This document shows, piece after piece, positions 13,700 through 38,581 of a stretch of DNA of 64,000 nt. Under the pieces are notes generated by a model. The model searched no databases, was not told where the DNA came from, and worked only from the letters and a program-made list of their open reading frames with translations. Made by a program: the position numbers and the translations under genes. The stretch's first letter is position 1. Every line of letters starts with the position of its first letter. The DNA comes from Paenibacillus protaetiae (GTDB lineage: Bacteria; Bacillota; Bacilli; Paenibacillales; Paenibacillaceae), in NCBI RefSeq assembly GCF_004135365.1, contig NZ_CP035492.1, forward strand, positions 1,364,001-1,428,000. Reading direction: 5' to 3'.

Positions 13700-15055
13700 C
13701 TACCGTTTTTGTCTAAATTGAATGGTGATCGTCGTGCCGACATCCGGCAAGCTGTACACATCAATTTTGCCTTCATGAAGATCCACGATCCGTTTTGCAA
13801 TCGACAGCCCAAGGCCAACGCCTCCCGTAGCGCGGGCTCGGGCGCCGTCCACGCGGAAAAAGCGCTCAAACAAGTTCGGAATATCCGCTTCCGGAATGCC
13901 GATCCCTTTATCTTTCACTTCAATCTGAACGATGTTTTTAATTTGCAGCACCGTTACATCGATCGGCTCTTTACTGTATTTGATCGCATTATCCAACAAG
14001 ATGACGAGCAACTGGCGGATTTTGTTTTTGTCCGCATACATGCGCACCACTTTGGCAGAAGCCTTCACCCGGATCGGTCGCTGGAACGTGGTCTGCAGCA
14101 TATTGGCCGTTTCGTCCAGCATTTGGACGACGTCGAATTGCTCCTGGTTCAGCCAGTCCTCCTGCTCCGCTTCGGCAAGCGTCAGCATCGACTTGATCAG
14201 GCTTTGCAGGCGCGAGGTTTCTTTATCAATCGCTTCGATCGCTTCGTTGCGCACATTCTCATCATCGCGTCCCCAGCGCTTCAGCATTGCCGTGTAGCTG
14301 CTGATAACGGTAAGCGGCGTCTTCAGCTCATGGGAGGCATCCGCCACAAAATGCTTTTGCCCTTCAAATGTACGATCCAGCCGGTCGACCATCTGGTTAA
14401 ACGCGCGGACAAGCTGCTGAAGCTCGGGCGATTCCTCAGAATTGGTATTTTCAATTTTGCGGAGCTTGCCGCTCCGGTCAATCTCGCGGATCGTTGAAAC
14501 CATCTGCTGAATAGGAGCCGTCAGCCTGGAAGTAAACCAGTATGTACCGAATATAGCAAACAAGATTGCGCCAACCGTCGTCACTGTAAGCGCCGCAACC
14601 AAAATTTGCAGGTAGCTGTCCAGCTCGTTCAACACGCGGTTGATTTCAAGCATTGCAACGACATCGTGCCCCTCATAAAGCGGCACCTGCATGCTTAATA
14701 TCCGCTCGCCGCCTTTGCTGATCATCCCGGTATTATGCTGGGATTGAAACTGGGCGGGCAGATCCAGGAGCACCGGATCGGAGCCGGTAATATTCGCGAC
14801 TTTCCCGTCCGGCAGCACAATCCGGATCAGCTCATTGACGTTGTAATATTCCTTAAGCAGATCGGGGTCGCTAAGGCTGCTGCCCTTTTGGATGTTCGGA
14901 TTTTCCAAGATGAGATTGATTTTATTGGTCAGCACCCGTTCTTCGCTGTCCGTCGTAATTTTAATCACATAAAAATAAACAAATATATTAAACAAAATAA
15001 GAATAAAGATTAACCAAAAAATGGTGAAGAGGGTAAACCTTTTACGCAGTGTCAT
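13700..15055 (-). CDS. Sensor histidine kinase (HAMP / HisKA / HATPase)
   Basis: Membrane sensor of 451 residues. The first transmembrane helix lies at about 8-32 (FTLFTIFWLIFILILFNIFV), an extracytoplasmic domain at about 35-150, and a second membrane helix at about 152-172. A HAMP linker follows, then the HisKA dimerisation box FVADASHELKTPLTVISS with the phospho-acceptor His, and an ATPase domain with DNAIKYS (N box), DKGIGIPEAD (G1) and GVGLGLSIAKRI (G2). It overlaps the response-regulator gene by 4 bases. Similarity is to the ArlS/CssS/HssS type of OmpR-linked kinases; the stimulus is unknown. The nitrilase operon follows 11 bases downstream. Confidence 0.92.
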   Translation of the reverse strand: MTLRKRFTLFTIFWLIFILILFNIFVYFYVIKITTDSEERVLTNKINLILENPNIQKGSSLSDPDLLKEYYNVNELIRIVLPDGKVANITGSDPVLLDLPAQFQSQHNTGMISKGGERILSMQVPLYEGHDVVAMLEINRVLNELDSYLQILVAALTVTTVGAILFAIFGTYWFTSRLTAPIQQMVSTIREIDRSGKLRKIENTNSEESPELQQLVRAFNQMVDRLDRTFEGQKHFVADASHELKTPLTVISSYTAMLKRWGRDDENVRNEAIEAIDKETSRLQSLIKSMLTLAEAEQEDWLNQEQFDVVQMLDETANMLQTTFQRPIRVKASAKVVRMYADKNKIRQLLVILLDNAIKYSKEPIDVTVLQIKNIVQIEVKDKGIGIPEADIPNLFERFFRVDGARARATGGVGLGLSIAKRIVDLHEGKIDVYSLPDVGTTITIQFRQKR

Positions 15056-15750
15056 GCATCCGGCTCCTTAATCATATAACCGACGCCGCGCACCGTATGG
15101 ATAAGCTTATGCCGGTATCCTTTGTCCAGCTTTTGCCGCAAATACCGGATGTACACGTCGACCAGATTCGTTTCGCCTATAAAATCGTATCCCCACACAT
15201 CGGACAAAATGTCTTCGCGCGATTTCTCTTCGTTTTTATGCTCGACCAAGTAGACGAGCAGCTCAAATTCTCGCGGCGTCAGCTCGATGACAATATCTTT
15301 GCGGAACACTTTGCGCGTCCGGAGCTCGATCGTCAAGTCGCCTACTTTAATGACATCATTGCCTTCCGCTTCGCGCGGGTTTTGCTGGAATATACGTAAA
15401 ATATTGCGGACGCGGGCGAGCAGCTCCTCCATCGCAAACGGTTTTGTAATATAATCGTTGGCCCCGTGCTCGAAGCCGCTAACTTTATCCGGCACGGTAT
15501 CCCTTGCCGTCAGCAAAATAACCGGCACCGGATTGCCTGCCTGGCGCAGCCGCCTAAGCACTTCAATTCCGTTCAGCTCGGGCAGCATGACATCCAGCAG
15601 CACAAGCTCCCATTCGCCTGAAGCCGCCATCTCGTAGCCTGTCCGGCCGTCCGCCGCTGTGCCTACATGATATCCTTCATGTTCCAATTCCAATTGTAAA
15701 ATGCGGGAAATTCCCGCCTCATCTTCAACCACTAATATGTTTTGATTCAT
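15052..15750 (-). CDS. OmpR/PhoB-family response regulator
   Basis: Protein of 232 residues. The receiver domain has the acidic pair in ILVVEDEAGI, the phospho-acceptor Asp in ELVLLDVMLPELNG, the switch Thr in VILLTARD and the Lys in NDYITKPFAMEELLARVR. The C-terminal winged helix shows ELTPREFELLVYLVEHKN and NLVDVYIRYLRQKLDKG, so it binds DNA as an OmpR-type regulator. It is translationally coupled to the kinase gene at 13700. Its closest known class is ArlR-like; targets are unknown. Confidence 0.94.
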   Translation of the reverse strand: MNQNILVVEDEAGISRILQLELEHEGYHVGTAADGRTGYEMAASGEWELVLLDVMLPELNGIEVLRRLRQAGNPVPVILLTARDTVPDKVSGFEHGANDYITKPFAMEELLARVRNILRIFQQNPREAEGNDVIKVGDLTIELRTRKVFRKDIVIELTPREFELLVYLVEHKNEEKSREDILSDVWGYDFIGETNLVDVYIRYLRQKLDKGYRHKLIHTVRGVGYMIKEPDA

Positions 15751-16024: not shown

Positions 16025-17653
16025 TTAAGTCCGTTCAGCTCTGCTTCTGACGGTGCTGCCCTTCTTCGCGCCAAGCTCCTTGGACAGAAAATGCCATAAA
16101 GGAGCTAACGCTTTGTCAGCAGCCCGGCGGATAGCGGAATTGTCTGTACACCATCCGCCGGCCCATATCGCCTCAAGCACCGCTGCCGTATCCAGCTGCG
16201 GGAAAACTATCGGGTCCGGCAGCATTTGCTGCCATTCCTTGCGCCCGCGGAATGATGTGTCCTTGTTTGCCGCCCATAACGTGCGCAGTCCGGCTTGAGC
16301 ACGACTCCCGGCAAGCCGTTCCAGCAGACTTAGCTTCCTCGCTTCCCATCGGGACACAAACGGATCGGCTGCAATAACGATCAATGATGCCTCCTGCAGC
16401 CAACCGGCCACTTCATGCCCCGAATGATCCCATGCGCCGGATACATCCACAACCGTTACATCAGACGGCAATCGTGCGATTTCCCGTTCAAAAGCATGCA
16501 GTCTCGGCGGCTCGTTCCGGGGAACGGCGGGCTGCAGCATATGCCAATGCACCCGATCGGCGCCTTGAAGCAAACGATATCGCTCGTCCGCCATGCCGGC
16601 ATGCTCCGGCTGCCGTCGCTTGGCAGCAATCGAACCGCCCCGCGGATCCAGAAGCGAATGCCATTCCGGGCGTACGCCGGGAAATTCAGCCGCCGCCACT
16701 TGCAAACCTTGCCGCGCCAGCAGCTTCGCAATGGAAATGGCCATAAAGGTCGCTCCAGCTCCTTCCGACAAACCCAGCACCGCTATCGTACAAGCTTTCC
16801 CGCTCCGCCGGACCGTATGTTCCGATGCCGCAATCGAATCGGCAGTATACACGGGAACAAAGGCGCGAAGCGCATCCAGCACCTGTTCCATAGAGCTGTA
16901 TCTATGATAAGGATCCTTTGCAAGCATACGGTCCAGCACACGGACAAATGCGCGCGGAACATCCGGGCCAAAAGGCCGGTTAACCGCCACCCGGTTCGTG
17001 ACACCCCCCGATAACATATAAAATAGAAGAGCGCCAAGTCCATATACGTCAGTCCATTCGCCGCTCTGCCCGCCGCCGCTTTGCTCAGGCGCTGCAAATC
17101 CGGGTGTCCCGAGCAGAACCGTATCCTGTTCCGCTCCGGGCTTGTAGAGCCTGGCAATGCCAAAGTCAATCAGCTTCACCAAACCGCGTTCATCGATCAT
17201 GACATTGGAAGGTTTCAAATCACGGTGAATAATTGGCGGCGATTGCCGGTGCAAATAAGAAAGAGCGGAACAAAGCTGCATGCCGATCGCAGCCGCCTCT
17301 TCAAACCGGATGCCCGCTCCTCGATCGGCTACCAGCTGCCGGACGGTTTGCCCGGATACAAAATCCATCACAAACCATTCCACCCCTTGCTCATCCGGCG
17401 GCGCGTAATCTACAATTGACGGTAAATTCGGATGGCTGAGCTTCATAAGCACCTGGGCTTCTTCCGATGATCTTTGCCGGTCTTCCGCCGCCGCTTTAAT
17501 GGCTTTCAAAGCGCGAAGCTTGCGTTCCAGCTTCATATCTTCCGCTGCATATACAACGCCCATTCCCCCGCTGCCAAGCAGCCGCACAATCCGGTAACGG
17601 CCGCCTGCTACCGTCCCCGGCTCCCAATGGGGCAAACTATCCTTGCTGTACAC
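16025..17653 (-). CDS. Ser/Thr protein kinase fused to a degenerate MinD/CpaE-like P-loop domain
   Basis: Cytosolic protein of 542 residues. Residues about 20-265 are a complete Hanks-type kinase: Gly-rich loop LGSGGMGVV (26-34), ATP Lys50 in RALKAIK, catalytic loop HRDLKPSN (143-150), DFG (163-165) and APE (188-190). There is no transmembrane helix and no PASTA repeat, unlike PrkC. Residues about 285-530 form a second domain that opens CTIAVLGLSEGAGATFMAIS, the layout of a ParA/MinD ATPase strand and P-loop. The canonical lysines are replaced (GAGAT), as in CpaE/TadZ-type proteins, and VTVVDVSGAWD and LIVIAADPFVSRWEARK follow like Walker B and later strands. The start is GTG with GGGAGG about 11 bases upstream. 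Function is unknown; phosphorylation-controlled positioning or scaffold activity is inference. Confidence 0.85.
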   Translation of the reverse strand: MYSKDSLPHWEPGTVAGGRYRIVRLLGSGGMGVVYAAEDMKLERKLRALKAIKAAAEDRQRSSEEAQVLMKLSHPNLPSIVDYAPPDEQGVEWFVMDFVSGQTVRQLVADRGAGIRFEEAAAIGMQLCSALSYLHRQSPPIIHRDLKPSNVMIDERGLVKLIDFGIARLYKPGAEQDTVLLGTPGFAAPEQSGGGQSGEWTDVYGLGALLFYMLSGGVTNRVAVNRPFGPDVPRAFVRVLDRMLAKDPYHRYSSMEQVLDALRAFVPVYTADSIAASEHTVRRSGKACTIAVLGLSEGAGATFMAISIAKLLARQGLQVAAAEFPGVRPEWHSLLDPRGGSIAAKRRQPEHAGMADERYRLLQGADRVHWHMLQPAVPRNEPPRLHAFEREIARLPSDVTVVDVSGAWDHSGHEVAGWLQEASLIVIAADPFVSRWEARKLSLLERLAGSRAQAGLRTLWAANKDTSFRGRKEWQQMLPDPIVFPQLDTAAVLEAIWAGGWCTDNSAIRRAADKALAPLWHFLSKELGAKKGSTVRSRAERT

Positions 17654-19139: not shown

Positions 19140-19194
19140 GTCATACTCCCCTTTCGATCAAATCTGGCTTGGATTGGTTATGTTTACATGCTTT

Positions 19195-19200
19195 ATTATA
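19195..19200 (-). promoter_or_regulatory. -10 box of the yesO-like gene promoter
   Basis: Perfect TATAAT on the minus strand 56 bases before the start codon. No good -35 hexamer is found at 16-18 bases, the usual situation for an activator-dependent promoter. The conserved element at 19218-19253 lies just upstream, and a cre-like site occupies the spacer. Confidence 0.65.
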
Positions 19201-19206
19201 AAGTGT

Positions 19207-19220
19207 TGTAACCGCTTACG
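19207..19220. promoter_or_regulatory. CcpA catabolite-responsive element (cre)
   Basis: TGTAACCGCTTACG matches the cre consensus TGWAANCGNTNWCA at 13 of 14 positions. It lies between the -10 box and the expected -35 position of the yesO-like gene, where bound CcpA would block RNA polymerase. Carbon catabolite repression of a sugar importer is the expected biology. Confidence 0.65.
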
Positions 19221-19253
19221 GTATTAAAAAATCCGCTTTTTTTGTTAAAAAAA
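19218..19253 (-). promoter_or_regulatory. Yes-regulon promoter element, copy 1
   Basis: A 36-base tract that recurs upstream of the permease operon (22409-22444). The shared core on the minus strand is TTTTTTTAACAAAA, one variable base, AAGCGG, one variable base, then TTTTT and AAT-CCG. In both copies the A of AAGCGG lies exactly 38 bases before the -10 box. It is probably the binding site of the AraC-type regulator encoded at 22540; this is inference. Confidence 0.55.
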
Positions 19254-19272
19254 CCGTCCTGTGCCGGAACGG
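19247..19272 (-). terminator. Terminator after the GH105 gene
   Basis: Minus-strand stem ACCGTTCC / GGACGGT (one bulge) followed by seven T residues. The T-run is shared with the start of promoter element copy 1. Confidence 0.6.
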
Positions 19273-25887: not shown

Positions 25888-26903
25888 CTAATTTCTTTTG
25901 ATCAAAAACAATGTAATCTCTTCGCGGTTATGAACGAGCTGCTTTGCCCGCTCCACTTTAAAAACAGTCTCCAGCTTCGCGATCACATCTCTAATCGTTT
26001 GCAAAGGCTTACGGTGCATCAGCTTAATCGTTATAACGGCCGATGCTTGAGGAGCAAGCGCCTCTTCAAGGCCAAGCACCAGCTTGACCATCTGCATAGG
26101 GCTCCAGCTCATGTCGCAAACAAGCAGATCGAATGATCCCGCTTGAAACTGCACATCCGCCGCATTGCGCTTCAAATAAGTAAGACGCGGATGTTTTTGG
26201 ATTGATTCATGCAGTTCGGCCGGATCAATCGCCGTTACATGAAGTCCCCGTTCCAGCAGCAGCGAAGTCCAGCCCCCGGCGCCGCGCCGATATCAAGCGC
26301 AGAACGATAGGCCGACAAATCAAGGCCAAATACCCGCTCCGCCTCCAGCAGTTTAAACTTAGCCCGGGATATTTGCCCTTCTTCTTTCTGGAAACGGATC
26401 GCGCCTCCCGGCCAGTCCGACAGCATTTCCTCCGGTGTGCCGACCCCGATATACATTCTGCTATCCGCCGCATAAATAGCGATGATGTTGTCCGGCTGCT
26501 GCCGCACGATTTCCGCTCCGGCCGCCGTAAGGATTTCATCCACAATCGTTCTTGAATCGGCAGGCGAATAAGGATAACTTGTTTTGGCGCTTTTGCGCAC
26601 ATGAACAGCTGCCTTCCGCCCTGCCAAGCTGCCGGCCAAGTTCTGGACCGCTTTTGTCAAACTTGCCAAATCACTTTCATTGCCTTCAAGCTCCAATACT
26701 TCATCTACAGGCTGAATATGCCTTAAAAAAATCGGCGGATTCGCCGCGATCAGCCCGGCCAGCTGCTGCTTGTCCAGCGTGGTTTCAACAAGAAACACTT
26801 CCCCTGCCGCAAGCTGCGTGAAAGACCCGCCCCCCATCAGGCGCCTGAGCTCTTCTATCGCATACGGCGAGTAACCGTGATTAGCCGTGCCAATTAAACG
26901 CAT
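25888..26903 (-). pseudogene. RlmM/FtsJ-like 2'-O-ribose RNA methyltransferase, frameshifted
   Basis: SAM-dependent methyltransferase of the RlmM/FtsJ class (23S rRNA 2'-O-methylation in the characterised members). The first 211 residues run in one frame, with a substrate-binding N-terminal domain and GQISRAKFKLLEAERVFGLD, up to ALDIGAAPG; that frame then ends at 26235. The rest (about 25888-26270) continues in another frame as GWTSLLLERGLHVTAIDP, FDLLVCDMSW and AVITIKLMHRKP. One added G in the run at plus 26273-26277 restores the SAM motif DIGAAPGGWTS and a 338-residue protein, the usual size. The catalytic K-D-K-type residues are present once joined (KFKLLEAE; DMSW; IKLM). Either a recent inactivation or a homopolymer base-call error. 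Confidence 0.82.
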
Positions 26904-26925
26904 TCACATTTCCTCCATCAAATAA

Positions 26926-26959
26926 CAAAAATGCGCCTTGCCAAAGCAAGCAACGCATT
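26926..26959 (-). terminator. Terminator-like hairpin just upstream of the RlmM-like gene
   Basis: Minus-strand stem AATGCG...CGCATT with an inner CTTGC/GCAAG helix is followed by TTTTTG, only about 20 bases before the start codon. It may be an attenuator in the leader of the gene or a second terminator behind the receiver-like gene. Confidence 0.45.
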
Positions 26960-27016
26960 ATTATTGTAACATAAAATTCAAGCCGCCCAATAGCAGGAAA
27001 TATAAGCGGCTATAAT

Positions 27017-27052
27017 AAAAAACCTTGCAGCCGCTAACCGGCCGCAAGGTTT
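27017..27052 (-). terminator. Terminator of the fpg-nfo-receiver transcript
   Basis: Stem AAACCTTGC (27020-27028) / GCAAGGTTT (27044-27052), followed on the minus strand by T residues, directly after the stop codon at 27059. Confidence 0.8.
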
Positions 27053-27058
27053 GTGCCT

Positions 27059-27409
27059 TTAGGAATGGGAATCAGCCGCATTTTGCGCAATTTGCAGCAG
27101 CAGCGAATCCGGCATCATATGATTGGACAGCCCCATATCGAGAGGGGCCGTTTCGGACAACATCGCATACATTTGCATTTTGCCATGCGTGCTGGAAGAA
27201 TGCATATACACATGCTGCGGGTATTTGCCTGTCTCCACGATATATCTGGCGACCTCAAGGCCGGTTGGCTGGCCCCAGCCTAAATCAAAATCAAGCGATA
27301 AGATGCCGATTGGCTCCGAATCAATCAGCAGCTTGCATTCCTCGGCATTCCGGGCAAGGACAAACCCCTTCGGGCAGGCGCGGAAGTCGTCCAAATAGAC
27401 ATGAATCAT
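27059..27409 (-). CDS. Small receiver-like protein (cyclic-phosphate-processing receiver type)
   Basis: Protein of 116 residues that begins MIHVYLDDFRACPKGFVL, has the phospho-site-like strand ILSLDFDLGWGQPTG and later HVYMHSSSTHGKM. The DDxR start and DFDLG strand resemble the 'cyclic-phosphate processing receiver' (cREC/REC) proteins, stand-alone receiver relatives without an output domain. The start ATG 27409 follows GGAGGA at 7 bases and overlaps the nfo stop by 4 bases, so it is translationally coupled to endonuclease IV. Its role is unknown; a link to nucleic-acid end processing is suggested only by position. Confidence 0.65.
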   Translation of the reverse strand: MIHVYLDDFRACPKGFVLARNAEECKLLIDSEPIGILSLDFDLGWGQPTGLEVARYIVETGKYPQHVYMHSSSTHGKMQMYAMLSETAPLDMGLSNHMMPDSLLLQIAQNAADSHS

Positions 27410-28239
27410 AGCTGATTCCTCCATTTGCGCATTATATTTAATTGCTCCTCATAAGACCCGCCATCATCAGGAGACGTTTCCAATATAAAAGGCACGTTCA
27501 TAAGCTCCGGCGCTGAAATAAGCCACTGCAAGCCGGCTTCTCCGATATGCCCTTGCAGCAGCCTGGCGTGTCTGTCCTTTTTTTGCCCGCAAGGATACAG
27601 GCTGTCGTTGAAATGGACGGCTGCAACCTGCTCCAGTACGCCCAGCTTTCGCGCTTTATCCGCCCATTCGGCTGAAACTTCGCCGCGCCATACGCCGCTC
27701 GCAAACAGATGGCAGCTGTCCAGGCAAAAGGCAAGTTTCTCCGGATAGCTGCTCAAACGGCGGATTTGCGCCAGCTCCTCCATGGTTGTGCCCATAAAGG
27801 TATGCTCGCCCGACTGCACTTCAATCAGCAGCTTTGCTTTTCCATTCCATGCTGCCGCTACGCGATTCAAGCAAGCAATAATATGTTGATAGCCGGTTAA
27901 CGGCTCTGTGCCTTTATATACGCCAAAATGGACGACGATGCCGATCGAACCGCAGCTTTCCGCGATGTCCAGATCGTTCAGCAGAGACAATACCGTCCGG
28001 TCCTGCTGTTCTTCCGTATCGGCGGCCAGATTGGTAGGGTACGGCGTATGGGCCACCGTTACGATTTTGTGCTTCTCGCATAGAGCTGCGCATTCCAGCG
28101 CGTCTTTCCGGTCAAAACGTTTAACCGTCAGGCTCCGGGGATTTTTCGGAAAATATTGAAACGCCGTTAATCCGGCTGCTGCCGCTTCCCGGGCAGCTTT
28201 CGCATAACCGCCTTTAATGCTGACGTGGTAACCTAACAT
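27406..28239 (-). CDS. nfo: Deoxyribonuclease IV (AP endonuclease, zinc-dependent)
   Basis: Cuts DNA 5' of abasic sites in base-excision repair. The 277-residue TIM-barrel protein starts MLGYHVSIKGGYAKA and shows the zinc-ligand stretches VAHTPYPTNLA, LLIEVQSGEHTFMGTT, FCLDSCHLFASG, AAVHFNDSLYPCGQKKDRHA and ETSPDDGGSYEEQL. All these are standard for the Nfo family. It lies 6 bases after the fpg gene, whose product makes the substrate for AP endonucleases, so the two act in consecutive steps. Confidence 0.95.
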   Translation of the reverse strand: MLGYHVSIKGGYAKAAREAAAAGLTAFQYFPKNPRSLTVKRFDRKDALECAALCEKHKIVTVAHTPYPTNLAADTEEQQDRTVLSLLNDLDIAESCGSIGIVVHFGVYKGTEPLTGYQHIIACLNRVAAAWNGKAKLLIEVQSGEHTFMGTTMEELAQIRRLSSYPEKLAFCLDSCHLFASGVWRGEVSAEWADKARKLGVLEQVAAVHFNDSLYPCGQKKDRHARLLQGHIGEAGLQWLISAPELMNVPFILETSPDDGGSYEEQLNIMRKWRNQL

Positions 28240-28245
28240 GCCCTG

Positions 28246-29058
28246 CTATTCCTTCTGGCAGGACGGGCACACGAAAGCTTTGCGCGATGCCACTTCGATC
28301 TGCTCGATTGTGCTTCCGCACCGGCGGCAGCTTTCTCCAGCCCGGTCATACACTTGGCACAACTCATCGTAGCCGCCTGTTAACGTATCGGCAGCGGTGA
28401 AAGGCTGATCCATGTAGCCGCCCCTTGCTATCGCTTCCTTTAACACACTATGCATGGATGTATGTAAACGTTCCCAATCGCCGGATTCCAGCGTTGGAAT
28501 TTTGGCATCCGGCCGGATGGAGGCCGCATAAACGATTTCATCCGCATAACAGTTGCCGATGCCCGACAACACCTGCTGGTCTACAAGGGATGCTTTTAAC
28601 GTTCCGCGTTTTTTGGCAAACAGATCGGCAAACTTAGCCGCATTCAGCCGCTTATCGAACGGATCGGGACCAAGCTTTGCCAGCGCGCCTTCCAGCTCCT
28701 TTACGGAAAGCAGATGCAAATGGCCCAGCCGCAGCCCGATAAAATACAGATTCCCGTGCTCAAAGCGGATTGTCACTTGTATCGTTCTGTCCGGCTTCTC
28801 TTCCTCCGATCCAAAAAACATGGACCCGCCAAGCATGAGATGAAGCTCCAGCCGCTTCCCGTTATCCAGATGGAATATCAAATGTTTGCCGCGCCGTTCC
28901 ACATACCAGATTGTGCGGCCAACAAGCATTTGCTGAAATTCGTCCGGGCTTACGTTAATTGATTTATCCCGCGTTACTTCCGTTCCTGTAATGACTGCCC
29001 CGGCAATTTGCTCGTTCAGCAGTTTACGATACGTTTCCATTTCCGGCAATTCCGGCAT
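28246..29058 (-). CDS. Formamidopyrimidine-DNA glycosylase family protein (Fpg/Nei)
   Basis: Bifunctional DNA glycosylase/AP lyase of 270 residues that removes oxidised bases. The N-terminal catalytic PELPEMETYRKLL (Pro2, Glu3) and the beta-hairpin lysine region ERRGKHLIFHLDNG are present. So is the helix-two-turn-helix stretch LVDQQVLSGIGNCYADEIVY and the C-terminal zinc finger with four cysteines (CRRCG and CPSCQKE). Paenibacilli often carry more than one Fpg/Nei paralogue, and the METYR start differs from the canonical MutM VETVRR, so a Nei-type or second Fpg is possible; no symbol is given. It forms an operon with nfo. Confidence 0.88.
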   Translation of the reverse strand: MPELPEMETYRKLLNEQIAGAVITGTEVTRDKSINVSPDEFQQMLVGRTIWYVERRGKHLIFHLDNGKRLELHLMLGGSMFFGSEEEKPDRTIQVTIRFEHGNLYFIGLRLGHLHLLSVKELEGALAKLGPDPFDKRLNAAKFADLFAKKRGTLKASLVDQQVLSGIGNCYADEIVYAASIRPDAKIPTLESGDWERLHTSMHSVLKEAIARGGYMDQPFTAADTLTGGYDELCQVYDRAGESCRRCGSTIEQIEVASRKAFVCPSCQKE

Positions 29059-29101
29059 TCCGACTCATTCCTTCCTGTCCCTGTCGCTTTGCTTCATACT
29101 C

Positions 29102-29917
29102 TTATAGCCCGATACGCGATAAAATATACGATTGCAGCTCATCCAGGCTGCCGCATATCAAATCCGGCTTACAGCCTGCCAGTTTGGCATAATGCTCATA
29201 GTTATCTCTGGTCGTCAAACCGGTTAATACAAGTGCCGTTCCGCATCCGGCTGCGATACCGGCGGCAATATCCGTCGCCATGTTGTCGCCGATGACCCAA
29301 ATACCGCCCGGCTCCATCCCGAGCTGCTGCAGTGCATAATCCATCAATATCGACGAAGGCTTCCCGATGACGACCGGAACTTGTCCCGAAGCGGCCTCGA
29401 TCATCGCGCCGATCGAACCGGCACCCGGCTGCAAGCCGGATTCGCCCGGCAGCAATAAATCGGGATTGGTCATTACCGATACTGCGCCAGCCCGAATGAA
29501 TCGGACTGCCGCAGCCACGCGGCTGTAGCTCAGCTCGCGGTCGATCCCCTGCACGACAAAATCCGGCTGCTCCTCTTCCGTCAGCCGCAGTCCCGCTTCC
29601 GCCACAGCCTGTTTAAGACCGGCTTCTCCGACAACATACACCGATGCTCCCGGTTTCCGCTGCGCGATATACTGGGCAGCCGCTAAAGATGAAGTGCACA
29701 CCTCATCCGGCTGCGCCTCGATCCCCATGCCATTTAATCTTGCTGCAACCTCCTCCGGAGAAACGGAGGAATTGTTCGTCACGAACCGGAAAGGCAGCCG
29801 GTTGGCCCGCAGCGCAGCCAACAGCCGGTCCGCACCTTCAATCCGTTTGGATCCGTGATATAACGTTCCGTCCAAGTCTATCAAAAAACCGCGCATCGCG
29901 GTTGGTTTCAATGGCAT
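29102..29917 (-). CDS. HAD superfamily subfamily IIA phosphatase (NagD / p-nitrophenylphosphatase type)
   Basis: Cytosolic phosphatase of 271 residues. HAD motif I is LIDLDGTLYHGSKRI, motif II is FVTNNSSVSPEEVA, the motif III Lys lies in VPVVIGKPSSILMDYA, and motif IV is VIGDNMATDIAAGIAAG, followed by TALVLTGLTT. The cap inserted between motifs II and III is of the C2A type. The physiological substrate is unknown; relatives act on sugar phosphates, glycerol phosphate or UMP. Start 29917 follows GGGGAG at 7 bases. Confidence 0.9.
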   Translation of the reverse strand: MPLKPTAMRGFLIDLDGTLYHGSKRIEGADRLLAALRANRLPFRFVTNNSSVSPEEVAARLNGMGIEAQPDEVCTSSLAAAQYIAQRKPGASVYVVGEAGLKQAVAEAGLRLTEEEQPDFVVQGIDRELSYSRVAAAVRFIRAGAVSVMTNPDLLLPGESGLQPGAGSIGAMIEAASGQVPVVIGKPSSILMDYALQQLGMEPGGIWVIGDNMATDIAAGIAAGCGTALVLTGLTTRDNYEHYAKLAGCKPDLICGSLDELQSYILSRIGL

Positions 29918-30015
29918 ACCTGCACTCCCCTATATTGCCCGTGCCCGAAGCATCGCCCGATCCAGCCGGTTCACGCTGCCGTTAGCCGCAGCCTTCCGTT
30001 TAACGCCGACCATCG

Positions 30016-31452
30016 CTAACGTTGCGCCGCCGCTTTGCGGTGAAGCCGGTCCAGCCGCCTGCGCAGCGCATCAAGCTCGGCTCTTCGCTTCGGATTCATC
30101 CGGCCGGCCAACGGATGGCTAACCGCCAGTTCCAGCGCTTCTTTCGTGTAATAAATGGCAAGCTCTATATTTTTAATCTTATGCTCGTAATACATCGCCA
30201 GCTCGACATAAGCTTCCTGCTGATTCGCTCCGAACGCAGATTGCGCGTCAATAGCCTTCTGCCACAATAACACAGCACGGCTCCAATTTCCAGCTTTCTT
30301 GTCTCTTGCCGCCAGCAGCAGCAGTGCCGAATAAGCAGTCCTGCCGCTCATCCCGGCAGCTGCGCTGAACATCCGTTCCGCCTGCTGCCGGGCACCCATC
30401 CGCTCCAGCCATAAGCCCGTCCGGACCAGTTCTTCCGGCTCTGACGGAAGCGGCAGCTTGGCTGCACGCTCATCGCCCAGCAAATAACCAAACCGGACTG
30501 CCAGACAGGCAAGCGACAGCATATCAATTTCATTGTGCCGGAAGACGCCTTCCAGCGGCCCGGGCTTGCCGTCCGCCAAAAACTGAAAATAAAGCTGCGG
30601 CGCCAGCAAGCCCGGCACATCGTCTTGCCTTGCAATGCCAAGCCGCGACTCCTCCACATAGCTCAGCTTGCAGGAAGGAAGCGTATTGCGCCAAATGCTC
30701 CTCGCCGGATGCAAAAAATCAAGATGGAGCGGCTGCCAGGTCCGATTCCGAAAGCCGTTTAGGATGAACCGGTTTTGCAGCACCGGCCAGTCAAAAGTTC
30801 GTCCATTGTACGTTGCGAGGAAACGAAAGCGGCTGACCAGCCCGTCTAAATAATCCAGCATCGCCCGCTCTTCAGCAGGATGGCGGATAAGCGCCTGCTC
30901 GATTGTAAACTGCCCGGCTCCCGCATAACCAAGCCCGATCATAAACGGAACATTGCCCGCTCCTACGCCAAGGCCGGTTGTTTCCAGGTCGAGAAACAAG
31001 ATGTGCTTATCGTCTACCGGCTCGCCGGGATGAAAAGCGGACAAATGGGCGGCTGCATCCGCCAGCTCAGCCAAATGATGCGTACCATGCCGATAATCGG
31101 CGGCATAGGTGACGCGGCGCAGCAAAAAGCTTCCCATTTCGTTATGGATCAGCTTTACACCGAGCTTCGCCCATTCCGGGCCAAGCTCGTCCTCTTCTTT
31201 CTCCTGCGACGGCGGCGGAGAAGGCTGCGCCCCCGCTCTGGCCGGATTTGCTGCTGCGGAGGGCGTTAGTCCAGGTGCTGCAACAGCAGCCTCGGCCGAA
31301 CAAACTTCGCCTGCGCCCGACTCAGGCGAAGCAGGGATAACGGCGGCAGCTGATGCTTCCGTTATCCCCTTCTCCGCGGCCGCGGCCGTCTCAGCCGGCA
31401 GTGCGGAAGCATCCCCGCGCAGACGGCTCATTCGTTCACGCAAGCCGCTCAT
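30016..31452 (-). CDS. mrfB: Mitomycin repair factor B: DEDD-type exonuclease with TPR-like C-terminus
   Basis: Homologue of B. subtilis YprB/MrfB, the exonuclease partner of MrfA in repair of mitomycin C adducts. The 478-residue protein has an Ala/Pro/Glu-rich N-terminal 90 residues and a conserved WAKLGVKLIHNEMGSFLLRR segment. The RNase H-fold exonuclease domain follows, with DEDD motif I LFLDLETTGLG, motif II LATYNGRTFDWPVLQNRF and a third motif in FRHNEIDMLSLACLAVRFG. The C-terminal part (about 330-470) is made of TPR-like helices (GRTAYSALLLLAARDKKAG). The start overlaps the mrfA stop by 4 bases, as in the B. subtilis yprA-yprB pair. Confidence 0.9.
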   Translation of the reverse strand: MSGLRERMSRLRGDASALPAETAAAAEKGITEASAAAVIPASPESGAGEVCSAEAAVAAPGLTPSAAANPARAGAQPSPPPSQEKEEDELGPEWAKLGVKLIHNEMGSFLLRRVTYAADYRHGTHHLAELADAAAHLSAFHPGEPVDDKHILFLDLETTGLGVGAGNVPFMIGLGYAGAGQFTIEQALIRHPAEERAMLDYLDGLVSRFRFLATYNGRTFDWPVLQNRFILNGFRNRTWQPLHLDFLHPARSIWRNTLPSCKLSYVEESRLGIARQDDVPGLLAPQLYFQFLADGKPGPLEGVFRHNEIDMLSLACLAVRFGYLLGDERAAKLPLPSEPEELVRTGLWLERMGARQQAERMFSAAAGMSGRTAYSALLLLAARDKKAGNWSRAVLLWQKAIDAQSAFGANQQEAYVELAMYYEHKIKNIELAIYYTKEALELAVSHPLAGRMNPKRRAELDALRRRLDRLHRKAAAQR

Positions 31453-33734
31453 AATGCGCCGCCTGTTCGCTCAAGCAGCGACAACGCCTGCTGCTTGCCA
31501 AGCAAACCAACTTCTTCAATCGGCCCAACACAAGCCGGGCAACCGCTTAGGCAGGTGCAGGAGCGAATCACTTGGGCTGCTTGGCGCAGAAGCTCGTCAT
31601 GAACTTCATACAGCCGCTCGCTCAGCCCGATTCCTCCCGGATACCGGTCGTAGAAGTAGATTGTCGGCTTTTGCGTATGGACCGCTTTCACCTGCGGCAC
31701 GACGCGGATGTCGAACGGGTCGCACATCAAATAAAGCGGCGCGATATGAACCAGCACGTTGGCAATGCCAAGCAGCGCAAACTGCATTTCGTTTTTGCTT
31801 TTGCCTTCTGCCGCCTCATCACTGAACGAAAACCAGTAGCTGCTTGTATGGAGTTCCTCCTCCGGCAGATGGATCGGGCCGGAGCCGATATTTTCATGCG
31901 TGCGCAGCCGAATTTTTTTAAAGATAGTAGGCTTCGAATTGACGGTCACTTCTCCATATTGCCGGAGCAGTTCGCCGGATTCCGCTTCTTTGTCGACATG
32001 CAGCACCTTCAGCTCCACAGCCAGATTGGCATCCGTGTAATAATCCACGTTGACTTCCCGCACGTATGCTTTTTTCTCAGGGTAATCCAGCTTCTCAACC
32101 TGGTACTGCACCCCTTCGTGGATATAGATGGCTTCCTCATGAATAAGAGTCGGAGCGCCAAACCGGTCAACCTCGCCAAGTACCCGGCTGCCGTTGGTGA
32201 TATCAATAATGACGAAATTTTCCTGCGCAGCGGAGCGGAGCGAAATATTGTGGGCCGGGAACGACTGCTCCATCCAAAACCAGCGGTCGCCCGCGCGGTG
32301 CAGCACCTTCTCCTCCACCAGAAATTCCATCATATCTTCCAGCCGTTCTCCGCCAAACGTTTCTCCCGCTTCGAACGGCAGCTCGTATGCCGCGCATTTG
32401 ACATGGTCAATCAGTATAAGCAAATTATCAGGATGAATAAGGGCGCGTTCCGCCGGCCGGTTAAAAAAGAAATCCGGATTCTGAATAATGTATTGATCGA
32501 GCGGATTGCTGCTCGCAACGAGGAACGTCACCGAGCTTTCCTGCCTTCTCCCTGCCCGACCCGCCTGCTGCCACGTGCTCGCAACCGTTCCCGGATAGCC
32601 GTTCAGCACGCATGCCTGCAGCTGGCCGATGTCAATGCCAAGCTCCAGCGCGTTCGTGCTGACAACGCCGCGGATTTGGCCGCTGCGCAGCCCGCGTTCG
32701 ATTTCCCGGCGCAGCTTGGGCAAATAACCGCCCCGGTAGCCGCGGATCGTCGGCGCATCCAGTTTGTCCTTGATCAGCTCCTGCAAATAGGTAAGCAGCA
32801 GTTCGACCCGTACTCGGCTGCGGGCAAACACGATTGTCTGCACGCCCTGCTGCAGCAGCATCGCCGCCAGCTTGCGGGTTTCAAGGACACTGCTGCGCCG
32901 AATGCCCAGCTGCTTATTGACAACAGGGGGATTATAGAAAATAAAATGTTTTTCCCCCATTGGAGCCCCATTGTCGTTGATCAGCACAACCTTGTCTCCG
33001 ATCAGTCTCTCCGCGTGCTCTCCCGGATTATCTATGGTTGCCGAAGCGCAAATAAATTGCGGATTGGAACCGTAAAACCGGCAGATCCGCTTCAGCCTGC
33101 GCACCACATTGGCGACATGGCTTCCGAATACGCCGCGATACGAATGCAGCTCGTCGATAACGATATATTTCAAGTTCTCGAACAGCTTGACCCATTTGGT
33201 ATGATGCGGCAAAATTGCCGAGTGCAGCATGTCCGGATTCGTGACGACAATATGTCCCGCATTGCGGATCACTTGCCGTACTGACGGAGCCGTATCCCCG
33301 TCGTATGTATGCGTCTTAAGATCAACATCCATTAAATCGGCCAGCTCCTGCAGCTCGGCCACCTGGTCCTGGGCCAGCGCTTTCGTCGGAAATAAATACA
33401 ACGCCCGGCCTTCCCCGTTCTCCAGCAGCGATTGCAGAACCGGCAAGTTGTAGCACATCGTTTTGCCGGATGCCGTTGGCGTTACCGCCACAATGTGGCT
33501 GCCGTTTCTTACGGCGGCATAGCTTGAGCTTTGGTGTGTATATAAACGATTAATCCCCTTGGTGGCAAGCGCTTCTTTCAGCTTTGGATGCAAATCATCC
33601 GGCGTAGCGGCGGTTTGCGCTTCTTTGGCTTCAATCGTTCTCCAATGCGTTATATTATCCATAACGGCTTGATCCTGCTTCAGCAGCTGGAGCCACTCCT
33701 CGAGCCCGGAGGTTTTCCCCGTCCAGCGATTCAT
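31449..33734 (-). CDS. mrfA: Mitomycin repair factor A: DEAD/DEAH-box helicase with C-terminal zinc cluster
   Basis: Superfamily 2 helicase homologous to B. subtilis YprA/MrfA. The Q-motif region is TKGINRLYTHQSSSYAAV, motif I VTPTASGKTMCYNLPVLQ, motif Ia LFPTKALAQDQ, motif II VIDELHSYRG (DE-x-H), motif III CASATIDNPGEH and motif VI WQQAGRAGRR. The C-terminal DUF1998/MZB region holds a four-Cys zinc cluster CTCLSGCPACVGP. The frame opens at 33761, but ATG 33734 follows AAAGGAGAGG at 6 bases and is preferred (761 residues). It pairs with mrfB. The 570-codon forward-strand frame over it is antisense noise. Confidence 0.93.
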   Translation of the reverse strand: MNRWTGKTSGLEEWLQLLKQDQAVMDNITHWRTIEAKEAQTAATPDDLHPKLKEALATKGINRLYTHQSSSYAAVRNGSHIVAVTPTASGKTMCYNLPVLQSLLENGEGRALYLFPTKALAQDQVAELQELADLMDVDLKTHTYDGDTAPSVRQVIRNAGHIVVTNPDMLHSAILPHHTKWVKLFENLKYIVIDELHSYRGVFGSHVANVVRRLKRICRFYGSNPQFICASATIDNPGEHAERLIGDKVVLINDNGAPMGEKHFIFYNPPVVNKQLGIRRSSVLETRKLAAMLLQQGVQTIVFARSRVRVELLLTYLQELIKDKLDAPTIRGYRGGYLPKLRREIERGLRSGQIRGVVSTNALELGIDIGQLQACVLNGYPGTVASTWQQAGRAGRRQESSVTFLVASSNPLDQYIIQNPDFFFNRPAERALIHPDNLLILIDHVKCAAYELPFEAGETFGGERLEDMMEFLVEEKVLHRAGDRWFWMEQSFPAHNISLRSAAQENFVIIDITNGSRVLGEVDRFGAPTLIHEEAIYIHEGVQYQVEKLDYPEKKAYVREVNVDYYTDANLAVELKVLHVDKEAESGELLRQYGEVTVNSKPTIFKKIRLRTHENIGSGPIHLPEEELHTSSYWFSFSDEAAEGKSKNEMQFALLGIANVLVHIAPLYLMCDPFDIRVVPQVKAVHTQKPTIYFYDRYPGGIGLSERLYEVHDELLRQAAQVIRSCTCLSGCPACVGPIEEVGLLGKQQALSLLERTGGAL

Positions 33735-33859
33735 AACCGTCCTCTCCTTTGTTCCATGCATAATGCCTGTTTACTGTCCATTCTACAGAATACATGTTCG
33801 CACCGCAATTGGTTTATTTTCCTTATATTTGCGTCATACCCATTCGGCCCGGCAGCTGA

Positions 33860-33892
33860 AAGGCCCTCCCCGTTCAGTACGGGAAGGGCCTT
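33860..33892 (-). terminator. Hairpin 3' of rnz
   Basis: Stem AAGGCCCT-CCCGT / ACGGG-AGGGCCTT with one mismatch and a 5-base loop, followed on the minus strand by a short TTTC. It lies 90 bases after the rnz stop and about 100 bases before mrfA, and is probably the terminator of rnz. Confidence 0.55.
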
Positions 33893-33980
33893 ATGATTTG
33901 CTTTTATGTATAGGTTCAGTCCAGTACATGATACAGCTTATCAGCAGTCGCGCTGTAAACGCCGCTTTCGCTTCCGAAGG

Positions 33981-34907
33981 TTAATGAACGCATGGGATAT
34001 GAATATGCATCATATCAAATGCAGCAGCGGATGCGGGAAAAACCGTCTTCGCTTCATCTTCCAGCGCCGGCATATCCTCTCCCCGAAATCGGGAGCTGAA
34101 GTGGGTCATTACCAGTTGACGGGCGCCGGCTTCTTTGGCCGCCTGCGCAGCCTGCAGCGTTGTGGAATGCCCGTAATCGTATGCTTTTTCCTCCTGGCCT
34201 TCGGCAAACGTGGCCTCATGCACCAGCAAATCAGCTCCTGCAGCAAGCTTAACCGCGTTATCGCATGGCCGCGTATCGCCAAGTATCGTCACCACGCGGC
34301 CCTTCACTGGCGCGCCAACTACATCAGATGAACGGATAAGGGTGCCGTCCGGCAGCTCCACATCACGGCCGTTTTTCAGCTGGCCATATAAAGGTCCGCT
34401 TGGCACGCCGAGCCGCTTCAGCTTCTCGCCGTCCAGCTTGCCGGGGCGGTCCTGCTCCGTAACACGGTAGCCGAAACATTCAATCCGGTGGTCAAGCAGC
34501 GCGGCCTCAACCTTGTATTGCTCGTCTTCATAAACGATGCCTTCCGAAATTTCCGTAATGATCAGCTCATATTCAAGCCGGGAACCGCTTATTTCCAGCG
34601 CTGTTGTGACAAGCTGTTTAATGCCCGGCGGGCCAAACAGCTTCAGCGGCTCCTTCGTTTCAAAATATGACCGGCTGCTGAGCAGGCCAGGCAAGCCAAA
34701 TGTATGGTCGCCGTGTAAATGCGTAACAAATAGCATCGTCAGCTTGCTCAGCTTCAGCGGCGAATGCAGCAGCTGGTGCTGCGTCCCTTCCCCGGCGTCA
34801 AACATCCATATTTCACATCTTGGATCCGGCAGCTTCAGCGCAATGGACGTCACGTTGCGTTCTTTTGTCGGACGGCCCGCCGCAGTGCCTAAAAACCATA
34901 AATCCAT
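33981..34907 (-). CDS. rnz: Ribonuclease Z (tRNA 3'-processing endonuclease)
   Basis: Zinc endonuclease that trims the 3' end of CCA-less tRNA precursors. The 308-residue protein has the MBL signature FVTHLHGDHTFGLPGL, the N-terminal FLGTAAGRPTKERNVTS (substrate-binding Thr/Pro loop), VHEATFAEGQEEKAYDYGHST with zinc ligands and the C-terminal VMTHFSSRF. The length agrees with B. subtilis Rnz (307). It is monocistronic with about 160 bases to metH. Confidence 0.95.
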   Translation of the reverse strand: MDLWFLGTAAGRPTKERNVTSIALKLPDPRCEIWMFDAGEGTQHQLLHSPLKLSKLTMLFVTHLHGDHTFGLPGLLSSRSYFETKEPLKLFGPPGIKQLVTTALEISGSRLEYELIITEISEGIVYEDEQYKVEAALLDHRIECFGYRVTEQDRPGKLDGEKLKRLGVPSGPLYGQLKNGRDVELPDGTLIRSSDVVGAPVKGRVVTILGDTRPCDNAVKLAAGADLLVHEATFAEGQEEKAYDYGHSTTLQAAQAAKEAGARQLVMTHFSSRFRGEDMPALEDEAKTVFPASAAAFDMMHIHIPCVH

Positions 34908-34984
34908 CGTTCCACCACCTCATTATGTAGCATATCCATCTTTCCGCTTATACTCACGAGCGGCTATACCGGATCGCTGAATGG

Positions 34985-35024
34985 AAAAGGAAGAGCATCC
35001 CGCTTGCCGCAGGACGCTCCTTTT
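34985..35024 (-). terminator. Probable terminator of metH
   Basis: Imperfect hairpin (GAGC-TCC / GGGA-GCTC arms around a G+C loop) followed on the minus strand by CTTCCTTTTCC, 45 bases after the metH stop. The stem has mismatches, so the call is moderate. Confidence 0.45.
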
Positions 35025-35069
35025 CCTTTACGTTATGCCGCACGGCACTGCTTGTCTGCCAGCCGTTTG

Positions 35070-38000
35070 TTAAGCTTTATCCACATTAAAGTATTGCGCT
35101 TGCGGATGGGAGAAGACCATAGCCGATACCGATGCCTCGGGTTCCATCATAAAGCCTTCCGTCAGCTCAACGCCGATGTCTTCCGGTTTCATCAGCTCAA
35201 ACAATGGGCCTTGATCCTCGAGATTCGGGCAGGCCGGGTAGCCAAACGATACACGGATGCCTTGATAACGGGCGCCAAAACGCTGCTTCATCGTCATTTC
35301 CGGCGGGTCCGGATATCCCCAAGCATCACGCATCATATGATGAATACGCTCCGCCATGCCCTCGGCCACTTCCAGCGCAACCGCCTGCAAGGCGTGCGAG
35401 CGCAAATAATCGCCTTGATCCTTCCATTCGTTCGCCAGTTCGCGAACCCCTTGGCCGGCTGTTACAACGAGGAATCCGACATAATCCATAATACCGCTCT
35501 CCACCGGCTTCAAATAATCCGCCAGGCACAAATACGGCTCGACCTGCTGGCGCGGGAAGCTGAACCGCTTGATCACTTCACCCGGATGCTGTGGATCATA
35601 GATAAGAATATCATTGCCCGAAGACTGCGCCGGGAAAAACCGGTACATGCCATGCGCCTGCAAGATGCCGGTCGCTGCCGCTTCCTTCAGGATAGAATTC
35701 ACCGTTTCCTTCAAATGAACGGCCTTGTCGTTGCCTTCCTTCAGCAGCTGCTCGACATTGCCCTTCAACCCAAGATGGTGGCCAAGCAGCATTTGCATGT
35801 TGACATAAGGCTCAACTTGCGGAATCGGGACGTTGCGCAGCACGTGGCGTTCCAAATCCGGCGGAATGTAGACCGGATTATCCTGTGCAATGCTGGAGCG
35901 GACCGCACGCGTCAGCACCGGCAGCTCCTTTTTCGCTTCTTCCTCAACCGGACCTTGCGCCTTCCATTCGGCAAGCTCGGTTTCAAGCGTTTGCCTATGT
36001 TCAGGATTCATCAGCTTGTTTGCAATATCCAGGCCGTCCATCGCATCTTTGGCATACATGACCAGCCCGTCATACTCCGGGCCAATCCGGTTTTTGGTAA
36101 ATTTGCGCGTCAGCGCAGCTCCGCCGACCATAATCGGCGCATCAATGCCGGCATTGCGCAAGTCTTGCGCCGTTACGACCATCTGCTGGGCGGATTTGAC
36201 GAGCAGGCCGGACAAGCCGATAATGTCGGCTTTTTCTTTCCGGTAAGCTTCGATGAGCTGCTCCGGCGGCACTTTTATGCCCAGATTGACGATTTCGTAA
36301 CCATTGTTGGACAATATAATTTCGACCAGGTTTTTGCCGATGTCATGCACGTCGCCTTTGACCGTTGCCAGCATAATTTTACCTTTGACCGACGATTCGT
36401 TTTTCTCCATAAACTGTTCCAGGTGCGCGACAGACGCCTTCATAACTTCGGCGCTTTGCAGCACCTCAGCGACAATGAGCTCGTTGTTGTTGAAGAGGCG
36501 GCCAACCTCCTCCATCCCTTTCATAAGCGGCCCGTTAATAATATCTAGCGCGGAATATTTTTGCAGCGCCAAATCCAGGTCAGGAATAAGTCCTTCTTTG
36601 GTGCCTTCCACCACATAAGAAGCAAGCCTCTCTTCCAGCGAAAGATTCGTTGCTTTCTCTTTTTTGGCCACCTTCTTATCGCGGAAAGCCGCTACGAAGG
36701 CTGCAAGTGTCTCGTCGTTCGTATCGTACAGGAGCGCTTCGGACAGACGGCGTTCCTCTTCCGGAATGGAAGCGTAACGCTCCAGCTTTTCCGTATTGAC
36801 AATCGCATAATCAAGCCCCGCTTTTGTGCATTCGTACAAAAAGACCGAATTCAACACTTCACGGCCCGCTTCCGGCAATCCGAACGAAATGTTGCTGATC
36901 CCGAGAATGGTCTGGCACTCTGGCAGCCGTTCTTTAATGAGGCGAATGCCTTCAATCGTTTCCTTCGCGGAACCGATATATTGCTCGTCGCCTGTTCCGA
37001 CCGGGAATACTAGCGGGTCAAAAATGATATCTTCGGCGTTCATGCCGTATTTGTTCACAAGCAGATCATGCGAACGCAACGCAACTTCCAGCTTATCTTC
37101 CCGCGTAATCGCTTGGCCGCGTTCGTCAATCGTGCCGACGACTGCCGCCGCGCCATATTTATGGATAAGCGGCACAACCTTCTCGAACTTCTCTTCGCCG
37201 TCCTCGAGGTTGATCGAGTTAATGATCGCCTTGCCCTGCGAATATTTCAGAGACAACTCAATCACTTTGGCATCCGTCGTATCAATAACAAGCGGAACCT
37301 TCACTTTTTTGACGACCAGCTCTAAAAACTTCCGCATATCTTCCGCTTCTTCGCGGTCCGGGTCCTGCAAACAGACGTCAATGACATGCGCACCGTTTTT
37401 CACTTGCGCACGGGCAATCTCAGCCGCTTCCTCATATTTGCCTTCGGCAATGAGCCGCTTGAATTTGCGGGAGCCAAGCACATTTGTCCGCTCGCCGACC
37501 ATATATGGACGGTTCTCCGATTCAATATAAACAGCATCAATACCCGATACAGCCGGGGGATGAATGCCCGCTGTTTTACGCGGCGCATATTTCGCCATCG
37601 TTTCGGCTAAAGCGCGAATATGTGCAGGTGTCGTACCGCAGCAGCCGCCGGCAATATTCAGCCAGCCCTGCTGGGCGAAAGCTTCCATTTTCCGGGCAAG
37701 CGATTCCGGCGATTCATGATAATGCCCGTTTTCATCCGGCAAGCCTGCATTCGGGTAGCAGCTAATCGCCGACCGGGAAATTTCGCTTAATGTACGGATG
37801 TGATCGCGCATAAATTCCGGTCCTGTTGCGCAGTTTAAGCCGATCGAAATCGGCTGCAGATGCTCCAGCGAAATATATAATGAATCAATAGGCTGGCCGG
37901 CCAGCGTTGTTCCCATCGGCTCAATCGTGCCCGAGATCATGATTGGCAGCACTTTACCCGTTGCAGCAAACGCATTGCGGATGCCGATGCTGCCTGCTTT

Positions 38001-38510
38001 CACATTCAGCGTATCCTGCGAAGTTTCCAGCAGCAATGCATCCACATCGCCTTCAATCAATGCAACGGCCTGCTCGAAGTAGCTGTCGACCAGCTCATCG
38101 AAGGTTACACCGCCCGTTACGGACAAGGTTTTGGTCGTAGGTCCAAGCGCACCCGCTACATAACGGGGTTTATCCGGTGTTGAATATTTATCCGCCGCAT
38201 CACGGGCCAGTTTGGCCGCTGCCAGGTTAATTTCCCGGGCTTTTTCCGGAATATCGTATTCAGCCAAGACGACGCTAGTCGCACCAAACGTATTGGTTTC
38301 CAAAATATCGGCGCCGGCCTCCAAATATTGCTCATGTATGCTTTGAATGACATCCGGCCTTGTCAGCACGAGAATTTCATTACAACCGTCCAGTTCTTCT
38401 CCGCCGAAGTCCGTTTCCGTCAACCCAGCCTGCTGGATCATCGTTCCCATTGCGCCATCCAAAATCAAAATGCGTTGCTTCATCAACTGCTGTAACGTAG
38501 GTTTTGACAA
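35070..38510 (-). CDS. metH: Cobalamin-dependent methionine synthase
   Basis: Transfers methyl from 5-methyltetrahydrofolate to homocysteine through methylcobalamin. The protein of about 1146 residues has all four modules. The homocysteine domain (about 1-320) shows ILDGAMGTMIQQAG and zinc ligands in GLNCATG and AGGCCGTTPAH. The pterin domain (about 340-610) includes RTNVLGSRKFKRLI. The cobalamin cap and binding domain (about 650-890) has the axial His in DVHDIGKNLVE, and the C-terminal activation domain (about 920-1146) ends near GVELTEGFMMEPEASVSAMV. The frame begins at GTG 38519, but TTG 38510 has GGAAGG at a normal distance, so 38510 is chosen. No S-box, cobalamin riboswitch or T-box was recognised upstream. 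Divergent from mtnD. Confidence 0.95.
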   Translation of the reverse strand: MSKPTLQQLMKQRILILDGAMGTMIQQAGLTETDFGGEELDGCNEILVLTRPDVIQSIHEQYLEAGADILETNTFGATSVVLAEYDIPEKAREINLAAAKLARDAADKYSTPDKPRYVAGALGPTTKTLSVTGGVTFDELVDSYFEQAVALIEGDVDALLLETSQDTLNVKAGSIGIRNAFAATGKVLPIMISGTIEPMGTTLAGQPIDSLYISLEHLQPISIGLNCATGPEFMRDHIRTLSEISRSAISCYPNAGLPDENGHYHESPESLARKMEAFAQQGWLNIAGGCCGTTPAHIRALAETMAKYAPRKTAGIHPPAVSGIDAVYIESENRPYMVGERTNVLGSRKFKRLIAEGKYEEAAEIARAQVKNGAHVIDVCLQDPDREEAEDMRKFLELVVKKVKVPLVIDTTDAKVIELSLKYSQGKAIINSINLEDGEEKFEKVVPLIHKYGAAAVVGTIDERGQAITREDKLEVALRSHDLLVNKYGMNAEDIIFDPLVFPVGTGDEQYIGSAKETIEGIRLIKERLPECQTILGISNISFGLPEAGREVLNSVFLYECTKAGLDYAIVNTEKLERYASIPEEERRLSEALLYDTNDETLAAFVAAFRDKKVAKKEKATNLSLEERLASYVVEGTKEGLIPDLDLALQKYSALDIINGPLMKGMEEVGRLFNNNELIVAEVLQSAEVMKASVAHLEQFMEKNESSVKGKIMLATVKGDVHDIGKNLVEIILSNNGYEIVNLGIKVPPEQLIEAYRKEKADIIGLSGLLVKSAQQMVVTAQDLRNAGIDAPIMVGGAALTRKFTKNRIGPEYDGLVMYAKDAMDGLDIANKLMNPEHRQTLETELAEWKAQGPVEEEAKKELPVLTRAVRSSIAQDNPVYIPPDLERHVLRNVPIPQVEPYVNMQMLLGHHLGLKGNVEQLLKEGNDKAVHLKETVNSILKEAAATGILQAHGMYRFFPAQSSGNDILIYDPQHPGEVIKRFSFPRQQVEPYLCLADYLKPVESGIMDYVGFLVVTAGQGVRELANEWKDQGDYLRSHALQAVALEVAEGMAERIHHMMRDAWGYPDPPEMTMKQRFGARYQGIRVSFGYPACPNLEDQGPLFELMKPEDIGVELTEGFMMEPEASVSAMVFSHPQAQYFNVDKA

Positions 38511-38581
38511 TGTGTACACCCTTCCGCGAAATCATTGAAATATAGTTTAACAGAATAAACTTGACGTGAAAAGGTAAACCG

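Follow-up and report, generated by a model that had tools for sequence, protein, structure and literature searches.

A Ser/Thr kinase fused to a TadZ/CpaE-like domain without P-loop lysines in Paenibacillus protaetiae, and its linkage to Tad operons in relatives

What a protein kinase gains from being joined to a CpaE/MinD-like domain, and whether such a protein controls a pilus or secretion machine, is the question raised by a gene of Paenibacillus protaetiae. The gene lies in a 64,000-nucleotide stretch of contig NZ_CP035492.1, which is called the window here. An earlier note, made from the sequence alone, had proposed phosphorylation-dependent control of localisation or of such a machine, which remains an inference. 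The open reading frame that it had picked out is genuine: a 542-residue protein is encoded on the minus strand from a GTG start with a ribosome-binding-like GGGAGG site close upstream (Table 1), and the 4.23-Mb window genome contains one full-length copy.

Table 1. Coordinates of the fusion gene, its domains and the surrounding features in the window
Feature	Position	Strand	Basis or remark
Kinase-TadZ-like fusion gene	16025..17653	-	542 aa; GTG start 17653, stop 16025
Hanks-type Ser/Thr kinase domain, residues 20-257	16883..17596	-	Pfam PF00069 Pkinase, E 1.8e-39
TadZ/CpaE-like domain, predicted MinD/ParA fold, no P-loop lysines, residues 285-542	16028..16801	-	Profiles, AF2, Foldseek, alignment
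Deviant Walker A GLSEGAGATF, residues 294-303	16745..16774	-	Neither lysine position holds K in the alignments
Two-component pair downstream of the kinase gene	13700..15750	-	Response regulator 15052-15750, histidine kinase 13700-15055; functional link not shown
Block MetH - RNase Z - c8 - c4 - HAD - Fpg - c10 - c11 - FtsJ methyltransferase, upstream of the kinase gene	26235..38519	-	Synteny with relatives

Residues K50, D145, N150, D163 and T183 are all present in the window kinase, with the VAIK lysine, the HRD aspartate, the asparagine and the DFG aspartate intact, and the first four are kept in 68/68 aligned kinase-bearing homologues. Judged by these catalytic residues the kinase is active-looking; activity itself is inferred. 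Of the earlier description, an intact kinase without PASTA repeats or a transmembrane segment, the catalytic residues and the lack of PASTA matches in a Pfam search hold, while the missing transmembrane segment rests on inspection by eye (none is obvious and the model consists of two globular domains; no transmembrane prediction was made). With 188 bits against NCBIfam NF033483 (PrkC/Stk1), the kinase domain belongs to the same Hanks family as the PASTA kinases, but the fusion falls far under the 450-bit cut-off, lacks PASTA repeats and has no apparent transmembrane segment. Matches to NCBIfam defence and lanthipeptide kinases, likewise far under cut-off, were rejected as generic kinase similarity. 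Pairwise dN/dS, for computable pairs only, was 0.08 to 0.16 for the kinase and 0.09 to 0.28 for the C-terminal domain, which shows purifying selection on both.

Residues 290-322 alone gave only a weak match to the MinD/ParA family (Pfam CbiA, E 0.05-0.13), and an hmmsearch of the C-terminal domain against the PDB had MinD on top with E 0.006. The AF2 model of the domain (pLDDT 89, pTM 0.88) found ParA-family 3ea0 as its best PDB match in Foldseek (E 1.4e-8, TM 0.64/0.68), followed by ParF, FlhG, Soj, MinD, FleN and MipZ. The family profile and the model thus agree in placing the whole domain in a predicted MinD/ParA fold. Absence of any relation between residues 285-542 and this fold would, by the earlier note, have refuted its reading; given the model and these matches, that refutation failed. 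The kinship with CpaE/TadZ, until now a guess, is supported by a profile-profile comparison, in which the C-terminal family profile matched CpaE from Tad operons of the order at 97.8% (E 7e-13), these CpaE proteins themselves matching TadZ 3fkq with E 3.4e-45. The domain is on this basis a relative of TadZ/CpaE, the link to TadZ, which positions Tad pili, running by way of Tad-operon CpaE. In the full-length model (pLDDT 86.6, pTM 0.67) the linker at about residues 269-284 has low confidence, and how the two domains sit relative to each other is consequently poorly predicted.

The loss of the Walker A lysines extends beyond the window protein. In an alignment of 72 domains the P-loop lysine position is occupied by A, T, G, S or V and never by K, and the signature-lysine position by S, A, Y, T, G or H, with K not listed; in L083, a divergent relative, a K follows one residue after the lysine position. 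G300 is invariant in 56/56 sequences of a first alignment, E323 and D403 in 72/72, and T302 is Thr in 70/72. The joining of a kinase to a MinD/ParA-fold domain without a P-loop lysine is thereby confirmed by Pfam, alignment, family profile and AF2, but the accompanying label of a dead P-loop is too strong: the loop of TadZ 3fkq (GGVGTST) likewise lacks the P-loop lysine, and PMC13170226 describes TadZ as an atypical ATPase whose dimerisation involves ATP binding. Lysine loss is thus no proof of a dead site.

Within the window's family, a search with one sequence detected the C-terminal domain in 118/247 genomes, and a profile search, the weakest matches of which may be other MinD-like proteins, detected it in 237/247; across the order the profile matched in 213/219 genomes. 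Nearly all strong matches lie in open frames of about 500 to 620 aa, and the kinase domain is present in almost every one of those examined, the exceptions being of a receiver-like type. The kinase-TadZ-like fusion is no one-off; it is conserved order-wide as a single-copy gene. Searches of Pfam and NCBIfam gave no family name of its own, and we found no description of a kinase-TadZ fusion in the open-access literature searched. At least four CpaF-bearing genomes (G397, G402, G420, G438) have no C-terminal profile match. Two genomes (G016 and G089) keep the fusion without a detectable Tad CpaF, and the kinase may therefore have another or an additional role.

The predicted tad/flp genes were found beside the fusion gene in relatives and not in the window genome. 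Among genomes listed as matches for both the C-terminal domain and CpaF, and counting best matches, the kinase gene and CpaF lie on the same strand no more than 6 kb apart in 41/59 genomes of other families, and in 0/35 of the window's family. A model of uniform positions and independent genomes gives the former figure a chance probability of ~1e-110. At 13 loci, in families f4, f6, f7, f8, f9 and f11, the gene stands upstream of CpaE-CpaF-TadB-TadC-TadE-TadX-TadE-prepilin peptidase, some of these loci ending early without the last Tad genes. In all 10 Tad operons checked, the kinase gene is first and a gene for a DUF6382-FHA protein, a phosphothreonine reader, is last, after the peptidase gene. 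The CpaF encoded behind the Paenibacillus cymbidii fusion gene has 59% identity to that of the window genome. Since Tad is nearly universal in the window's family (CpaF in 245/247 and FHA in 246/247 genomes), presence or absence is uninformative there, and in the order sample the co-occurrence of fusion and Tad (Fisher p 0.006) is weak evidence, absences being few and genomes non-independent.

The neighbours of the fusion gene in the window genome are not pilus genes, and the Tad operon is found 0.87 Mb away at 2.24-2.25 Mb, in the order CpaE/TadZ, CpaF, TadB, TadC, TadE, large protein, TadE, A24 peptidase and DUF6382-FHA. In other families the Tad operon comes after a block of c8, c4, Fpg, c10, c11, ABC and FtsJ methyltransferase genes, most members of which also precede the kinase gene in the window. 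On synteny alone, the fusion gene would be at the ancestral locus and the Tad operon elsewhere; because the root of the kinase tree is unclear, the direction of change (departure of the Tad operon or of the kinase) has no other support. A two-component pair lies close downstream of the kinase gene at most loci of the window's family, with gaps from the kinase gene to the next gene of 36 to 366 bp (274 bp in the window).

Some further features of these loci were recorded. The FtsJ-type methyltransferase gene (25894-26903, minus strand) is split across two frames, similarity to full-length relatives resuming in the second, and may for this reason be a pseudogene or reflect a sequencing error. 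Between it and the kinase gene, positions 17796-25843 (minus strand) encode a sugar-type ABC transporter, a two-component sensor/AraC-type regulator and a glycosyl-hydrolase-like protein, an arrangement common to the related loci L062, L063, L068 and L097. Beside the genome's Tad operon, L060:12359-15887 resembles a lasso-peptide-type cluster by eye from translations, with an ABC transporter, a B2-like protease and PqqD-like and HprK-like proteins.

Canonical Tad operons are not the only ones with which the fusion is associated. Genera g7, g8, g13 and g18 have a second, divergent Tad-like operon coding for SAF, P-loop, T2SSE, T2SSF and small membrane proteins; its first gene is the kinase gene, at an unchanged locus, and the next gene is 9 to 30 bp away (four measured). 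Most of this operon is missing in three g8 genomes (L110, L111, L121). In a third Tad-like cluster type, of mobile elements, the same C-terminal domain stands behind a receiver-like N-terminus (L081, L107-L109). We use this term because a profile test for a receiver gave no more than a hint (hhalign 37%, E 4e-4; PDB response regulators E 0.02-0.08). The kinase fusion fills the slot of the receiver-like protein in mobile-element-type clusters of G491, G533 and G544, and the receiver-like version replaces the kinase fusion in a g7-type operon of G050 (L197), so that in two Tad-like cluster types one operon slot holds either protein. The P. cymbidii Tad-linked kinase groups with the Tad-like-operon kinases (96/96), and its C-terminal domain with the receiver-type proteins (91/98, below the tool's mark for firm support). 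With roots not fixed in either tree and the second branch not firm, this conflict suggests domain exchange. The window gene is placed among orphan genes.

Mobile-element-like loci L081, L107, L109, L148 and L188 carry a Tad-like cluster with a lysine-less TadZ-like protein; the mobile-element signs, noted by eye, are a TraG/VirD4-like ATPase in L107 and, in L081, a TubZ/FtsZ-like protein that has relatives in L148 and L188. Outside the order, at L185 (G533) and L187 (G544), the fusion has the Tad FHA gene on one side and a second Tad-like operon on the other, bringing the two machine types together.

In related bacteria usually first in a Tad operon that ends with a phospho-reader, the gene probably switches pilus assembly on or off by phosphorylation. 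In the reading we prefer, to which we assign a probability of roughly two in three, the Tad machine has in the fusion a second TadZ/CpaE paralogue, one that bears a kinase and whose phosphorylation target is a Tad component or the FHA protein. The lysine-less MinD-fold domain would dock on the cytoplasmic Tad base, either on ordinary TadZ/CpaE or on the CpaF motor; the kinase domain, in the position of TadZ's receiver-like domain, would phosphorylate its target; and the DUF6382-FHA protein would read phosphothreonine and gate assembly or activity. Where the Tad operon has moved off, as it may have done in the window's family, the kinase gene at the old locus would act in trans, and action of the window lineage's fusion on its distant Tad operon is our best guess. 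This proposal starts from the fold, the homology, the intact kinase residues, the operon linkage in relatives and purifying selection, which we regard as established; docking, substrate, kinase activity, phosphothreonine reading by the FHA protein, ATP binding, dimerisation, polar localisation and the effect on, or requirement for, pili are inferred.

Against this reading stands the absence of canonical-Tad adjacency in the window genome and in 35/35 scored genomes of its family, which leaves room for repurposing of the kinase after the split from Tad, with another target, perhaps connected with the neighbouring two-component system or with general control of the envelope, while the TadZ-like domain is retained only as a dimerisation or membrane-targeting module. 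The recurrent two-component pair downstream and the two genomes that keep the gene without Tad CpaF fit such a change of role. The intergenic distances, however, do not suggest a single operon, the architecture and the motif residues E323 and D403 are common to all Tad-linked homologues, and the Tad-FHA system is still in nearly all genomes of the family; we consider repurposing unlikely, though not to be dismissed. Further points against the preferred reading are that G016 and G089 keep the fusion without a detectable Tad CpaF, that at least four CpaF-bearing genomes have no C-terminal profile match, and that the FHA protein could be fed by PrkC-like or other kinases.

That the fusion merely marks a site, as a TadZ-like landmark at the pole or membrane whose kinase controls only its own oligomerisation by autophosphorylation, appears improbable to us. 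The MinD fold is typical of positioning proteins, and TadZ/CpaE localises the Tad secretin, with CpaE dimers modelled around CpaF (PMC13170226); but a landmark of this sort has no downstream reader, and the FHA gene closing 10/10 operons suggests a phosphorylation readout in trans. The weak Pfam alignment of the single C-terminal domain might still be taken to mean an ordinary cytosolic kinase whose C-terminal sensor, for nucleotides or stress, has nothing to do with pili and whose link to Tad is incidental. Such a reading is already strongly disfavoured by the profile homology to TadZ and by the association with canonical Tad, with the second Tad-like operon and with the mobile-element cluster type, and we give it very little weight.

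Among known proteins, Eubacterium rectale TadZ (3fkq) and Caulobacter CpaE share with the fusion the MinD/ParA-fold C-terminal domain with a deviant Walker A, and the profile relation through the operon's own CpaE; they are encoded in Tad operons, as is the fusion in many relatives, including the Tad-like operons of the four genera, and not in the window genome. Unlike them, the fusion has an active-looking Ser/Thr kinase (Pkinase) in place of the atypical N-terminal receiver domain, for which reason we call it TadZ-like and not TadZ, and in relatives it accompanies an ordinary TadZ/CpaE within one operon. In the T6SS, PpkA phosphorylates TssL or Fha and thereby triggers assembly and positioning (PMC3953482, PMC12607579). 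Both systems have a kinase specific to the machine and an FHA reader encoded among the genes of that machine, although in the window genome only the FHA gene is within the Tad operon. Tad differs in being a type IV filament machine, the fusion kinase, seemingly cytosolic, carries a TadZ-like domain, and no phosphatase gene was noticed in the clusters, although none was specifically sought. A last comparison is with the Kil/Tad-like apparatus of Myxococcus and with T7SSg and T7SSe loci that have FHA, kinase or Tad genes (PMC8460266, PMC11217815): FHA proteins accompany Tad-like machines there as they do here, the DUF6382-FHA protein is known from T7SSe and T7SSf, and T7SSg is adjoined by a full Tad set in Acetivibrio and Paenibacillus; a kinase-TadZ fusion is not described in the passages searched.

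The regulation of Tad pili in monoderm bacteria is poorly known. A wider generalisation remains tentative, and we would stop just short of favouring it: the Tad pili of the whole order may carry a phospho-switch, written by the kinase-TadZ pseudo-ATPase and read by the DUF6382-FHA protein, which would give type IV filaments a post-translational control of firing comparable to that of the T6SS, and kinase and receiver modules would have traded places on one TadZ-like chassis. FHA signalling in Tad-like machines has been raised as a speculation (PMC8460266), and a kinase-TadZ-like fusion heading an FHA-ending Tad operon makes it directly testable by one kinase-dead mutation. Receiver-like and kinase modules appear to have been swapped on one positioning-type protein, and a function is suggested for an order-wide family that had no name in the Pfam and NCBIfam searches.
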